Assembly (NCBI GenBank): GCA_030601865.1
Contig: JAUWAW010000004.1
Coordinates: 1-45,683, forward strand
DNA: 45,683 bases
Reading direction: 5' to 3'
From: Candidatus Nealsoniibacteriota bacterium
GTDB taxonomy: Bacteria > Patescibacteriota > Minisyncoccia > Minisyncoccales > JAUWAW01
Shown here: positions 3,530 to 41,427 of the stretch, piece by piece
Position numbering within the stretch: position 1 is the stretch's first letter
How the letters are laid out: the number at the start of each line of letters is the position of its first letter
Position numbers and translations under genes: made by a program
The notes under the pieces: model-generated
Told to the model about the DNA's origin: nothing
The model's database searches: none
Seen by the model: the letters and a program-made list of their open reading frames with translations, nothing else

Positions 3530-3693
3530 CCCCCACACCTAATCTGGATATGCGAATTCATTAAATAAATGAATTCGCTCTTGTGCCGACCCCCACACCT
3601 ACTTTGTCCAAGGTGCCAAAGGCACCTAAATTGCTGGAAGCAGGACAAAGTAGGTGTGGGGGCTGAAGGCACTAATCCAGATTAGGTGTGGGG
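3530..3693. repeat. Nested inverted-repeat element, CCCCCACACC family
   Basis: Outer arms 3531-3549/3675-3693 (ccccacacctaatctggat), inner arms 3590-3609/3643-3662 (cccccacacctactttgtcc); inner hairpins 3552-3578 and 3611-3627. Confidence 0.85.
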
Positions 3694-6314: not shown

Positions 6315-6525
6315 GGGGTGTTACCTATATATCTGGACCTGGACACAAAAAAGTCAAAAAACCTTTGCCACCAACTCGGCTTTTTCTTTTCTTTTATTCT
6401 AACCATTGTAGTATCTTTAGCCCTAATCAAATCTCCTCTTAGTTCTCCTGAGATTTTAACCAAAATAAAATAATTTCCCTTTTTTTCTCCGCTGGCGGAC
6501 CAAAATATAAATTTTTTGACAATAT

Positions 6526-6544
6526 ATTGATATCCGATATCAAT
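6526..6544. repeat. 19-bp palindrome attgatatccgatatcaat
   Basis: Perfect 9-bp arms around a single central base; same architecture as the ksgA element. Confidence 0.7.
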
Positions 6545-6554
6545 AGTCCTTTGT

Positions 6555-8222: not shown

Positions 8223-8258
8223 CAAAGTTAATTTTCGATTTACAATTTACAATTTTCA

Positions 8259-8705
8259 ATGAATTTACAATTTTCAATTTTCAAAATTAAAATAATAAAG
8301 AAAGTATTTCCAATTATTCTGCTGGTTTGTCTATTTCTCCTGCCGATATTTGCTTTTGCTTATGAGGGCTTGGTGCCCTGCGGCGGTCCGGGAGAACCAG
8401 AATGTCAATTCTGTCATATCTTTGTCATGTTAGGTAATATCCTTGATTTTCTTTTATTTACTATTGTTCCTTCGGTGGCAGTCCTGATGCTGACTATAGG
8501 TGGAGCCATGATGATTTTTGCCGGAGGAAGACCGGCCATGGTAGGCAAAGGTAGAACTATAATCACCGCTGTCATTACTGGTCTGGTCATAATCTACTGC
8601 GCCTGGCTGATTGTCAACACATTCTTTACAATCATTGGCTTCGCAAACTTTGAGGGCGCGGGCTGGAGCCCGGCAAGATGGTTTGAAATAGACTGTCCAA
8701 TATAA
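8259..8705 (+). CDS. TrbC/VirB2-like pilin-type membrane protein
   Basis: Signal-like N-terminus and hydrophobic segments LDFLLFTIVPSVAVLMLTIGGAMMIFAGGR...TAVITGLVIIYCAWLIVNTFF. Confidence 0.6.
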   Translation: MNLQFSIFKIKIIKKVFPIILLVCLFLLPIFAFAYEGLVPCGGPGEPECQFCHIFVMLGNILDFLLFTIVPSVAVLMLTIGGAMMIFAGGRPAMVGKGRTIITAVITGLVIIYCAWLIVNTFFTIIGFANFEGAGWSPARWFEIDCPI

Positions 8706-10053: not shown

Positions 10054-10935
10054 TTAACTTACGATGTTAAACAGTTTTGTGGAGTTTTGGAAGGTAATTT
10101 CAGCGATTTTTTCAAAAGTTTCGTTTTTGAGTTGAGCAATTCTTTGAGCGATGTATTTTACATACAAAGGTTCGTTTCTGCCTTCTGCTTCTGGAGGTAT
10201 TAGATAGGGACAATCGGTCTCAATTAAAATTCTTTCCAAAGGGGTTTTTTTAATTATTTCGTCTAAATCCAGTTTGAAAATTATACCGTTAAAGCCAAGG
10301 TAGAGTCCCATATCTAAATATTTCTGTGCCTGCCCCCAGTCCCCTGTAAAACAATGAATGACCCCTGTTTGCGGTTTTAATAATTTTAATAAATCCTCAT
10401 GAGCTTTGCGGCAGTGGAAGATTACGGGTAAATTTAATTCTTTTGCCAGTTCTAACTCTCTCAAAAAAACTTCTCTCTGTTTTTCTTTGAATAATGCTAA
10501 TTTCGTTTTAGTTTTGGGCTTAGACCAATAATCCAGGCCAATCTCGCCAATGGCTACTACTTTTTTAGAAGTTGCTAAGTTCTTGTATTTTTGATAATCA
10601 AAATCCTTTTCAAAACGACTCCCTTCTGCCGGGTCTATCTTCATTTTCAAAAGCCCGGTGTCCAAATTTATCGGGTGCAGGCCAATGGCGGCATAGACCC
10701 CCACACCACAACGAGCACCTATTTCTTTTTTTTGCGCAAAGCGCAGTGCTCGTTTGGTGTGGGGGTAAACGCCCTTCTCGTATTTTTCTGCCAGGTCAAC
10801 TGCCTTTTTTGAGGTCTGATAGTTTGAGCCCACATTAATCATCCAGACGTTATTGTCCAAACTTCGTTTAACAACCTCATCTCTGTCTTTATCAAAAGCC
10901 CTAAAATTCAAATGAGCATGAGTATCAATGAGCAT
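10054..10935 (-). CDS. tatD: TatD family deoxyribonuclease
   Basis: MLIDTHAHLNFRAFDKDRDE; AAIGLHPINLD; VAIGEIGLDYW; LPVIFHCRKA; ILIETDCPYL; interrupted by an in-frame insertion. Confidence 0.92.
   Translation of the reverse strand: MLIDTHAHLNFRAFDKDRDEVVKRSLDNNVWMINVGSNYQTSKKAVDLAEKYEKGVYPHTKRALRFAQKKEIGARCGVGVYAAIGLHPINLDTGLLKMKIDPAEGSRFEKDFDYQKYKNLATSKKVVAIGEIGLDYWSKPKTKTKLALFKEKQREVFLRELELAKELNLPVIFHCRKAHEDLLKLLKPQTGVIHCFTGDWGQAQKYLDMGLYLGFNGIIFKLDLDEIIKKTPLERILIETDCPYLIPPEAEGRNEPLYVKYIAQRIAQLKNETFEKIAEITFQNSTKLFNIVS
10698..10765. repeat. CCCCCACACC-family inverted-repeat element inserted in frame in tatD
   Basis: cccccacaccacaacgagcac ... gtgctcgtttggtgtggggg; encodes YPHTKRALRFAQKKEIGARCGVG. 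Confidence 0.85.
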
Positions 10936-10968
10936 AATATATAAATAATAGCATCTCAAAATAAAAAT

Positions 10969-11012
10969 GGGAAACAAAAGTTTAAAACCTTAGTTCAAAA
11001 CCTTTGTTTCCC
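10969..11012 (-). terminator. Intrinsic terminator of the 11.1-11.4 kb unit
   Basis: - strand gggaaacaaag...cttttgtttccc then atttttatttt. Confidence 0.75.
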
Positions 11013-26668: not shown

Positions 26669-26796
26669 AGTTAATTAATTTTCAATTTACAATCAAATCT
26701 CAATTTTCAATGTTTTAATTTTCAAACAAGAATAAACAAGGTTTGAAAATTGAAAATTAGGTCATTGTAAATTCATTGTAAATTGGTACTTGAAAA

Positions 26797-27258
26797 TTAA
26801 AATCGTGGTTTAGGCTTGAAGATTTGCGATAAATAATATTCCTGTTTTTTCTCCATCTCTTTAGCCGCCTTCTCGTCTTTCTCATGGTCATATCCCAAAA
26901 GATGTAAAATTCCGTGGATTAAACAAGTAGCTAATTCTTTTTCAAAAGTAGAGGCGAATCTTTTTGCATTTTTCTTAACCTCTCGAAGGCAAATCACTAC
27001 TTCACCAAGACCTTCTGTATGCTTGGGGGGTGTTACAAATTTCTCCTTGCCAATCTTTTGCGCCGGGAAAGCTAAAACATCGGTTACTCGGTTTTTGCCC
27101 CGGTATCTTTTATTCAACTTTCTCATTCTGCCTTGACCAATAAAAGCAATGGACACCTCAAGCCCTTTCTTTTTTTCTCCTTCTAAAACCTTGGAGGCGG
27201 TTTTTCTCAAAAAATCCTCATCAACTTGACCGGTAGTTAAATTGCGAATCTCTATCAT
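26797..27258 (-). CDS. ybeY: Endoribonuclease YbeY
   Basis: LNKRYRGKNRVTDVLAFP; LATCLIHGILHLLGYDHEKDEK. Confidence 0.93.
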   Translation of the reverse strand: MIEIRNLTTGQVDEDFLRKTASKVLEGEKKKGLEVSIAFIGQGRMRKLNKRYRGKNRVTDVLAFPAQKIGKEKFVTPPKHTEGLGEVVICLREVKKNAKRFASTFEKELATCLIHGILHLLGYDHEKDEKAAKEMEKKQEYYLSQIFKPKPRF

Positions 27259-27324: not shown

Positions 27325-27350
27325 CCCCCACACCTCTGGAGGTGTGGGGG
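27325..27350. repeat. Minimal CCCCCACACC-family inverted repeat abutting the rpsU-like stop
   Basis: cccccacacctctggaggtgtggggg. Confidence 0.8.
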
Positions 27351-29187: not shown

Positions 29188-29220
29188 CCCCCACACCATA
29201 ACTCTGTTTGGTGTGTGGGG
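29188..29220 (-). repeat. CCCCCACACC-family inverted repeat, likely working as a terminator
   Basis: cccccacaccataactctgtttggtgtgtgggg; on the - strand followed by caagcaatgggctttttt. Confidence 0.65.
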
Positions 29221-36136: not shown

Positions 36137-37174
36137 ATGAAAAATCAAAAAAAAGAATTCTTCAAGCGCGAAGATATCAAAACAATGCAAAAAGATATTA
36201 GTCAGCTCAGAGAACAAGAAGCTGAAAAAGAAAGGGAAAAAATAGCTGCTTTAAAGACAGCCGAAGAAACAAGGATTGAAAGGGAAAAGCAAGAAAAAAT
36301 AAAAAGGGGGGTTGAAGAAAAAGAAAGGCGGCCACCGGTACCTATTCCTCCAACTACCCTTCCAATTCCCCCGTCTATTTCAGTAGAAACAAAAAGACTA
36401 AAACCTGCTCCTTCTGAAAAAATCCTTATTCGGGTAGGAATCATGCTCATTATTGTTCTGATCTTTGTCAATATATTTCTTTTCTGGAATTGGTATTTAA
36501 GGGAAGAGGCGCTTCCAGGGCAAGTACCGCCTGAGGAAGTACTACCAGAGGAAGTATTGCCAGAGGAAGTGCCGCCTGAAGAGGTGCCGCCCGAGATAAT
36601 TATCCCGCTTTCTCTAATTCCGATTGAGGCCTCCAGTACCTTAGAAATCTCAGCCCCAGAAGAACTGTCTACTTTGTTTTCCCAAGTTCTTAAAACAGAG
36701 CTGACTGAAGGATATACTCGTATTTTAATTCAAGATATAGAAGAAAACAAAATTTTAGGCTTAAAAGAGTTTCTGGAGGGATTTGGTGTCAAGGTTCCAG
36801 AGGGTTTTTACGAAAAAGTAGGTCAGGACTTTACTTTATTTCTTTTTAAGCAGAAGCAGGGAAACAGATGGGGCTTGGTGACTAAAATTACTGAGAAAGA
36901 AAATCTGGCCTTTCTTTTGAAGAATTGGGAAGAGACAATGGAACAAGATTTTGGAAACCTTTTTACAGCAACAGGGAAAGAGGGGCCGGCGCTAACTCCC
37001 TATTTCAGGGCAGCTTCTTACAAAGGTGCATCTCTCCGTTACCAGACTTTTTCACGACAAGATTTAGGTATTTGTTATTCTTTATTTAATGACTATTTTG
37101 TTTTCACCAGCTCTTGGGAAAGCTTGTTAAAAACCATTGATCAACTGGCTTCACCCCCACACCAAAGCCAGTAA
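36137..37174 (+). CDS. Membrane protein with charged N-terminus and P-E-E-V repeat
   Basis: VGIMLIIVLIFVNIFLFWNWYL TM; PEEVLPEEVLPEEVPPEEVPPE; C-terminal PPHQSQ is encoded by the repeat element. Confidence 0.6.
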   Translation: MKNQKKEFFKREDIKTMQKDISQLREQEAEKEREKIAALKTAEETRIEREKQEKIKRGVEEKERRPPVPIPPTTLPIPPSISVETKRLKPAPSEKILIRVGIMLIIVLIFVNIFLFWNWYLREEALPGQVPPEEVLPEEVLPEEVPPEEVPPEIIIPLSLIPIEASSTLEISAPEELSTLFSQVLKTELTEGYTRILIQDIEENKILGLKEFLEGFGVKVPEGFYEKVGQDFTLFLFKQKQGNRWGLVTKITEKENLAFLLKNWEETMEQDFGNLFTATGKEGPALTPYFRAASYKGASLRYQTFSRQDLGICYSLFNDYFVFTSSWESLLKTIDQLASPPHQSQ

Positions 37175-37298
37175 TGACTATCTCACATCAACGAACAGAA
37201 GGCGAAGCCCCCACACCAAATTTTGGTAGTGGGGGCGAAGCCGCCTATCGGCTCTAAACTTTGTACTTATTCAATCTGTACCAGCTTTGGTGTGGGGG
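37154..37298. repeat. Nested CCCCCACACC-family inverted-repeat element
   Basis: Outer cccccacaccaaagc 37154-37168 / gctttggtgtggggg 37284-37298; inner cccccacaccaaattttggtagtggggg 37208-37235. Confidence 0.8.
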
Positions 37299-40563: not shown

Positions 40564-41427
40564 TTGATTATGCAACTCTTCTCAAAATCATTTATCAAAG
40601 CCTTTCTTAAAAAACATAAGGTGCGGCCTTCAAAAAGATTGGGTCAGAATTTTTTAATGGATTATTCTGTTCTTAAAAAAATTATGGCCGCTGCCAATCT
40701 TCAGAAAGAGGACATTGTTTTAGAAATCGGGCCTGGCATAGGAACCCTGACCCAAGAAATAGCCAAAAAGGCAAAAAAGGTTATTGCTGTGGAAAAAGAC
40801 CCAAGAATGATAGAAATTCTAAAAGAGATACTTAAGGGTCTAAAAAATGTAACAGTCGTTAAGGGTGATATCTTGGAGCTGTTGACATCCGATGTCAACA
40901 AGTTTGTTGACATCGGATGTCAACAAATCGAATATAAAATAGTTGCTAATTTACCTTACTATATTGTTGCTCCGGTGATTCGAAAGTTTCTGGAGGCGAA
41001 ATATCCGCCCAAGGAAATGGTTTTGATGGTGCAAAAAGAAGTGGCTCAGAGAATTTGCGCCCGCCCTCCAAAAATGAATCTCTTGGCAGTTTCAGTCCAG
41101 TTTTATGCCCAGCCTAAAATCATAAGTTATGTTTCTAAAAAATCATTCTGGCCCCAACCAAAAGTTGACGGCGCCATCATAAAAATAAGAATTAAGAATC
41201 AAGAATTAAGAATTAAGAATAATAAGGATCTATTTTTTAGGGTTGTTAAGGCAGGGTTTGCGCATCCCAGGAAGCAGTTAATCAATAATTTATCCAAGGG
41301 CCTAAAAATTGATAAACAAAAAGTAAGAACCTGGCTTTTGAAAAACAAAATCCAGCCCAGCCAGCGGGCCCAAACCCTAACTGTTGAAAACTGGGCTCAA
41401 CTAACCAAAAACTTTGTGGTAGAATAA
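40564..41427 (+). CDS. ksgA: 16S rRNA dimethyladenosine transferase carrying a palindromic insertion
   Basis: VRPSKRLGQNFLMDYSVLKKI; VLEIGPGIGTLTQEIAKKAKKVIAVEKD; IVANLPYYIVAPVIRKFLE. Confidence 0.95.
   Translation: MIMQLFSKSFIKAFLKKHKVRPSKRLGQNFLMDYSVLKKIMAAANLQKEDIVLEIGPGIGTLTQEIAKKAKKVIAVEKDPRMIEILKEILKGLKNVTVVKGDILELLTSDVNKFVDIGCQQIEYKIVANLPYYIVAPVIRKFLEAKYPPKEMVLMVQKEVAQRICARPPKMNLLAVSVQFYAQPKIISYVSKKSFWPQPKVDGAIIKIRIKNQELRIKNNKDLFFRVVKAGFAHPRKQLINNLSKGLKIDKQKVRTWLLKNKIQPSQRAQTLTVENWAQLTKNFVVE
40881..40924. repeat. Double palindrome inserted in ksgA
   Basis: gttgacatccgatgtcaac-aagttt-gttgacatcggatgtcaac; each half self-palindromic and complementary to the other. Confidence 0.9.

Follow-up and report, generated by a model that had tools for sequence, protein, structure and literature searches.

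Short hairpin elements in a patescibacterial genome (Candidatus Nealsoniibacteriota) are insertions that often lie inside genes while keeping the reading frame, and they share their termini with elements of about 300 bp whose only gene encodes a small GIY-YIG nuclease. The best reading of these data is that the hairpins are MITE-like derivatives of minimal transposons whose only protein is a GIY-YIG nuclease. Insertion is shown by the comparisons below, whereas catalysis of insertion by the GIY-YIG protein is inferred. The analysis began from the window, the complete 45,683-nt stretch examined, which is contig C4 of a 591-kb, 96% complete genome (G000). An earlier note on the window had described nested inverted repeats at 3530-3693 that share a 10-bp terminal motif, CCCCCACACC/GGTGTGGGGG, with private subterminal stems, and had named five loci for a MITE-like or hairpin-copied family. 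That description proved accurate when the sequence was read directly, with outer arms at 3530-3548 / 3675-3693 and inner arms at 3590-3609 / 3643-3662. All five loci are real, and because two of them (3530 and 37154) are nests, they comprise seven elements. These elements, together with the gene that carries one of them, are as follows.

3530-3693, no strand assigned: outer hairpin element with arms CCCCCACACCTAATCTGGAT / ATCCAGATTAGGTGTGGGG and two inner hairpins; one G is lost at the right tip, and the left flank is TCAA.
3590-3662, minus strand: inner element (73 nt) of the 74-nt three-way-junction class, inserted in the loop of the outer element's second hairpin (GTGC[CTGA]AGGCAC); target duplication CCGA 3586-3589 / CTGA 3663-3666 (3 of 4).
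10698-10765, plus strand: 68-nt element inserted in frame in the TatD-family DNase gene; flanks TAGA / TAAA.
10054-10977, minus strand: the TatD DNase gene carrying that element (PF01026, E 4.7e-73).
27325-27350, no strand assigned: 26-bp minimal palindrome CCCCCACACCTCTGGAGGTGTGGGGG between ybeY and proS; perfect duplication TCAA / TCAA.
29188-29220, no strand assigned: short degenerate element CCCCCACACCATAACTCTGTTTGGTGTGTGGGG; flanks CTTG / CTGG.
37154-37298, no strand assigned: outer element overlapping the 3′ end of ORF 36137-37174, with five private stem pairs beyond the motif; flanks TTCA / TCAA.
37208-37235, no strand assigned: inner 28-bp element nested in 37154-37298, flanked by 5-bp direct repeats CGAAG.

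The motif with up to one mismatch occurs 13 times in the window against 1.17 expected, a count reached in 0 of 100 shuffles. The note had proposed a genome-wide count of the pairs as a check, and G000, examined as stretches around the motifs, contains 55 exact copies (29 plus, 26 minus; reversed control 0 and 2) arranged as about 33 hairpins. Three size classes appear: minimal palindromes of 26-34 bp, a 65-74 nt class with two inner hairpins, and one 303-bp unit with an ORF. Apart from this unit, copies measure 24-165 nt and carry no transposase ORF. The note would have been contradicted by copies without arm complementarity beyond the motif; instead, private complementarity holds in nearly all copies, and in the 12 medium-sized copies it is far above that of re-dealt arms (0 of 500 shuffles). 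One short CCCCCACACC hairpin is carried inside a larger dispersed repeat of over 100 bp that also ends several contigs (C2 end, C8 start, C9:6368, C10:248 and C16 end). An Rfam scan of the window returned only tRNAs, so the hairpin is no known RNA family. A terminator function was set aside since many copies lie inside ORFs and the minimal ones lack a T-run. Two pattern hits in high-GC actinobacteria (loci L073 and L122) were set aside as likely chance because they had neither a private stem nor a duplication, and presence in phages was not examined.

The elements are insertions with a 4-bp target duplication. Over 145 distinct copies from G000, its relatives and a GTDB-wide pattern scan, 61 are flanked by an exact 4-bp direct repeat, against 7.7 after shuffling. 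Per-base identity is 0.69 at length 4 and 0.27-0.41 at lengths 2, 3 and 5-8. The commonest duplicated sites are TAAA, TATA, TTTA and CAAG (YNNR). The nest at 3530 is a true insertion, in that leaving out the inner copy restores a perfect GTGCC-TGAA-GGCAC hairpin in the outer element. Another empty site is found in genome G159, where a hairpin with duplicated CTCG interrupts the arm of a GIY-YIG unit whose sibling in genome G148 is uninterrupted.

Copies inside genes keep the frame. Fourteen G000 copies lie inside long ORFs, and in all of them core length + 4 is a multiple of 3 (lengths 26, 29, 65, 68 and 74). The copies were recognized by an open ORF, however, and seven share the length 74, so the 14 are not independent. 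The genes include UvrA (two copies), UvrC, TatD (in the window), HisD, two oxidoreductase subunits, FtsZ (two copies), a PilB-type ATPase and peptidase S11. Against PDB homologs the insert is an extra stretch at the element: HisD residues 166 to 194 align with neighboring residues 167 and 169 of 6an0, and UvrA and TatD break at their elements.

Twelve medium copies align as a single three-way junction, in which 93.9% of cells pair and 45 cells have changes on both sides. The covariation score is 0.343 against 0.119 shuffled (0 of 500), and slid versions fall to 0.08-0.16. Only 4 of about 341 paired cells are G-U, whereas RNA helices usually hold many more; it is therefore inferred that pairing matters at the DNA level, or that one arm is corrected from the other. 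The hairpin-copied part of the earlier proposal, in which arms are kept complementary by copying, fits this near-absence of G-U pairs but is not shown. A covariance model finds the 74-nt class in 39 of 196 genomes of the order.

The note had also suggested looking for a transposase with matching termini, and this gave an unexpected result. In G000 the only ORF found with such termini lies in the 303-bp unit C15:29994-30296, which encodes an intact 85-residue GIY-YIG protein of the UPF0213/Slx1-like kind (Pfam PF01541, 8.7e-14; PDB 1ZG2 'UPF0213', phmmer 2e-7). Structure prediction was not run, the sequence evidence for the fold being sufficient. The unit sits in the ATGA start-stop overlap of rplE and rplX, two genes named from their translated sequences, with duplication TGAA: rplE keeps its stop, and rplX starts at a GTG made of the unit's last G plus TG. 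No larger CCCCCACACC-bounded element with matching private arms was found in the loci examined, where pairs 0.5-4.5 kb apart were neighboring separate elements. The note's interpretation as a MITE-like family is supported by the conserved termini, the 4-bp target duplication, the dispersed and nested copies, and the copies inside genes, although the coding partner with the same ends is a GIY-YIG nuclease.

A search with this protein in 196 genomes of the order gave matches in 91. Of 70 loci examined, 40 have an inverted repeat (score >=11) directly bounding the ORF, against 1.2% of random placements in the same loci, and 27 reach a score >=13, against 0.07%. These were the best-scoring loci plus 40 picked by hand down the ranked list, so the sample is not random, and about 40% of the sampled ORFs have no detectable inverted repeat. 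The termini are C-rich but of several types (CCCCCACACC, CCCCGTTAG, CCCCGTAG, CCCCCCACCAC, CCCCGCAC and CTTCACCC). On the protein tree the TIR types need 9 changes against 25.1 shuffled, which is partly expected because TIR and ORF travel together. Exact 4-bp duplications flank 17 of 49 units against 1.9. The active site is invariant or nearly so, with Y16, R26, H30 and E62 in 55/55 and Y5 in 53/55. In three genomes (loci L191, L193 and L210), CCCCCACC-type elements lie next to the same flank AAAAGGTCGAA, suggesting a preferred target. GIY-YIG units with different TIRs are inserted at the same site, GGCAATCG|unit|AGGAAAGTCCGA, in genomes G030 (L190) and G036 (L215); this site looks like the 5′ part of the RNase P RNA gene, though a covariance-model scan did not call it. 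At L181, L188, L253, L045 and L054, GIY-YIG units or hairpins abut or lie close to tRNA genes, and in L181 and L188 the unit starts at the tRNA 5′ end.

Hairpins and GIY-YIG units are also linked across lineages. CCCCCACACC termini bound GIY-YIG ORFs in G000 and its relatives. Twenty genomes chosen only because they hold CCCCCACACC hairpins were also searched for the protein. Six lineage-diverse ones (Omnitrophota twice, Falkowbacteria, Nomurabacteria, Deltaproteobacteria and Brocadiaceae) have GIY-YIG ORFs bounded by CCCCCACACC repeats, again the only ORFs found with matching termini. Hairpins share subterminal bases with the GIY-YIG unit of their own genome (3.33 vs 2.27 nt, p=0.005, n=12). 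Within the order, genomes with the CCCCCACACC-type GIY-YIG clade are enriched for 74-nt hairpins (5/7 vs 34/189, p=0.004) and for short ones (p=0.02). Against the link, several hairpin-rich genomes (G076, G112, G003 and G038) show no CCCCCACACC-type GIY-YIG ORF at the sensitivity used, and in G076 the GIY-YIG unit has a different TIR. A second system runs in parallel: CCCCGTTAG...CTAACGGGG hairpins with private stems occur in 39 of 196 genomes of the order (reversed control in 1), including 27 copies in genome G037 and 2 in G000, with GIY-YIG units bearing that end.

GIY-YIG units repeatedly insert exactly at start codons and regenerate them. Twelve units lie at the start codon of an ORF of 29 codons (cut by a contig end) to 292 codons. 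Six of these (the CCCCCACACC units L180, L183, L185, L186 and L187, and the CCCCGTTAG unit L217) have ATGAA before the unit and TGAA after it, giving a GTG start. Two (L201 and L204) end in A and give ATG, while four of the CCCCGTAG type (L227, L240, L241 and L243) duplicate TATG whole. The unit's own ORF then sits just behind the target gene's original start region. It is inferred that this borrows translation signals while sparing the gene; the data do not separate targeting from survival of harmless insertions.

In the explanation favored here, with fairly good confidence, the hairpins are non-autonomous members of a mobile-element family. Its coding members are ~260-320 bp units consisting of terminal inverted repeats, a complementary subterminal stem and one ORF for a minimal Slx1-like (UPF0213) GIY-YIG nuclease. 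The comparisons establish insertion with 4-bp duplications at YNNR sites, dispersal and nesting, frame-keeping by in-gene copies, the same termini around GIY-YIG ORFs in at least seven lineages, and TIR types that follow the protein tree; that the nuclease is the recombination enzyme is an inference. Eukaryotic Slx1 is a structure-specific GIY-YIG nuclease, and the bacterial proteins are its minimal form (PMC1564403). A foldable element and a branched-DNA nuclease fit together. In the proposed scheme, the element would be extruded as a cruciform or single-stranded hairpin. The nuclease, like its relative Slx1, would recognize the branched DNA plus the C-rich tip, cut at the base, and make a staggered cut in a YNNR target, with joining and gap filling by host enzymes leaving the 4-bp duplication. 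Selection for foldable arms, or arm-to-arm copying, would explain why only the tip sequence is conserved while each stem is private. All of the evidence is comparative: no excision, transposition or cleavage was observed, and cutting of branched DNA, known for eukaryotic Slx1, was not assayed for these proteins. GIY-YIG enzymes are known to hydrolyze DNA, not to join strands, so joining must be assigned to host enzymes. Since TIR and ORF lie in one 300-bp unit, their co-descent alone does not prove that the protein acts on the TIR, and G000 has only one such ORF.

Other sources of the hairpins have been considered. MITEs of an unseen DDE transposase, with the GIY-YIG ORF as a captured passenger, would account for the TIRs and fixed-length duplication, which are the classical DDE signature, and the hairpins do look like ordinary MITEs. 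This is nevertheless unlikely: DDE_Tnp_1 (PF01609) is absent from G000 (other DDE families were not searched), GIY-YIG units in seven or more lineages are 257-317 bp with no room for another enzyme, at least seven TIR types all surround the same protein family, and the six hairpin-bearing genomes of other lineages carry a GIY-YIG, not a DDE gene, between matching termini. Movement as single strands by Y1 (RAYT/IS200-like) transposases is suggested by the REP-like hairpins with variable stems and by four Y1_Tnp ORFs of 253-278 aa in G000 (C14:19097, C14:26703, C17:12982 and C17:22379), whose own hairpins were not examined. Y1 chemistry leaves no target duplication, however, the Y1 genes lie at least 3.7 kb from any CCCCCACACC hairpin, and REPs are intergenic while at least 14 copies here lie inside genes, making this origin very unlikely.

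Least likely is that the short hairpins arise by quasi-palindrome repair or replication slippage with no enzyme of their own, and with a coincidental GIY-YIG link. Near-perfect arm complementarity with few G-U pairs fits arm-to-arm correction, but slippage does not produce an identical 10-bp tip at unrelated sites in several phyla, nor a fixed 4-bp duplication, and empty-site comparisons (HisD, UvrA, rplE/rplX and the nested cases) also argue against it. As the copies are hairpins inside core genes such as FtsZ and UvrA, they could instead be removed from RNA or skipped by ribosomes (intron- or byp-like). This too is very unlikely, because in all 14 cases the frame stays open and core+4 is a multiple of 3, which splicing or skipping would not require, although the copies were recognized by an open ORF and seven share the length 74.

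Several known systems are partly similar. Rickettsia palindromic elements (RPEs) are also short palindromes inserted in frame in unrelated protein genes (PMC10969869), but they are ~150 bp with conserved peptides and no known enzyme partner, while here the tip is conserved, the stem is private, a 4-bp duplication is present and a GIY-YIG partner shares the termini; no RPE sequence was compared. MITEs are likewise short and non-coding, with terminal inverted repeats, a target duplication and a coding relative with the same ends, but the partner found here is a GIY-YIG nuclease instead of a DDE transposase, and the stems covary. REP/RAYT elements share the dispersed hairpins with conserved tip and variable stem, and differ in the duplication, the position relative to Y1 genes and the frequent location inside genes. 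Prokaryotic Slx1-like proteins have been described as the minimal GIY-YIG form and proposed for DNA repair (PMC1564403), in a text that does not mention inverted repeats. GIY-YIG homing endonucleases also spread selfishly, but insert at one conserved homologous site, in or next to an intron or intein; here units of one clade lie at unrelated genes (rplX, epimerase, RNase H and nucleotidyltransferase) with TIR and duplication. A 2024 survey of CPR rRNA insertions found GIY-YIG ORFs in insertions matching no intron and judged them outside homing (PMC11270868). This family could explain that observation, and the rRNA cases may be the same kind of element, although they were not tested.

Transposons are classed by their enzyme, and a stand-alone GIY-YIG transposon with TIR and target duplication is not among the recognized classes, nor was one found in full-text literature searches, which did not cover preprints, so that prior description elsewhere cannot be excluded. 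Searches on palindrome-associated transposable elements and fungal mitochondrial hairpin elements gave no link. The hairpins alone would count as MITEs, and the novelty rests on the inferred GIY-YIG enzyme. A further reading, about as likely as not, is that an Slx1-like nuclease of about 85 residues is the sole recombination protein of a class of transposon. It would recognize a cruciform-forming element by its C-rich tips and insert it with a 4-bp duplication, the element being adapted to land in start codons, borrowing the target gene's start signal and rebuilding that gene's start codon with its own last base. Its hairpin derivatives would also add in-frame peptides to core proteins of many groundwater bacteria. 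Such a mechanism would give a function to UPF0213 proteins, which have been filed as DNA-repair nucleases, and would name the source of in-frame hairpin peptides in UvrA, FtsZ, HisD and other core proteins. At roughly 300 bp the coding unit would be among the smallest autonomous mobile elements known, if it is autonomous.

The window contains other palindromes. Two tandem 22-nt palindromes, TGTTGACATC(C/G)GATGTCAACA, lie at 40880-40926 with a diverged relative at 6525-6546, and are operator-like or another hairpin family. AT-rich long imperfect palindromes (AATTTTCAATTTACAAT) at 26675-26802 and 8233-8303 form a separate intergenic repeat.
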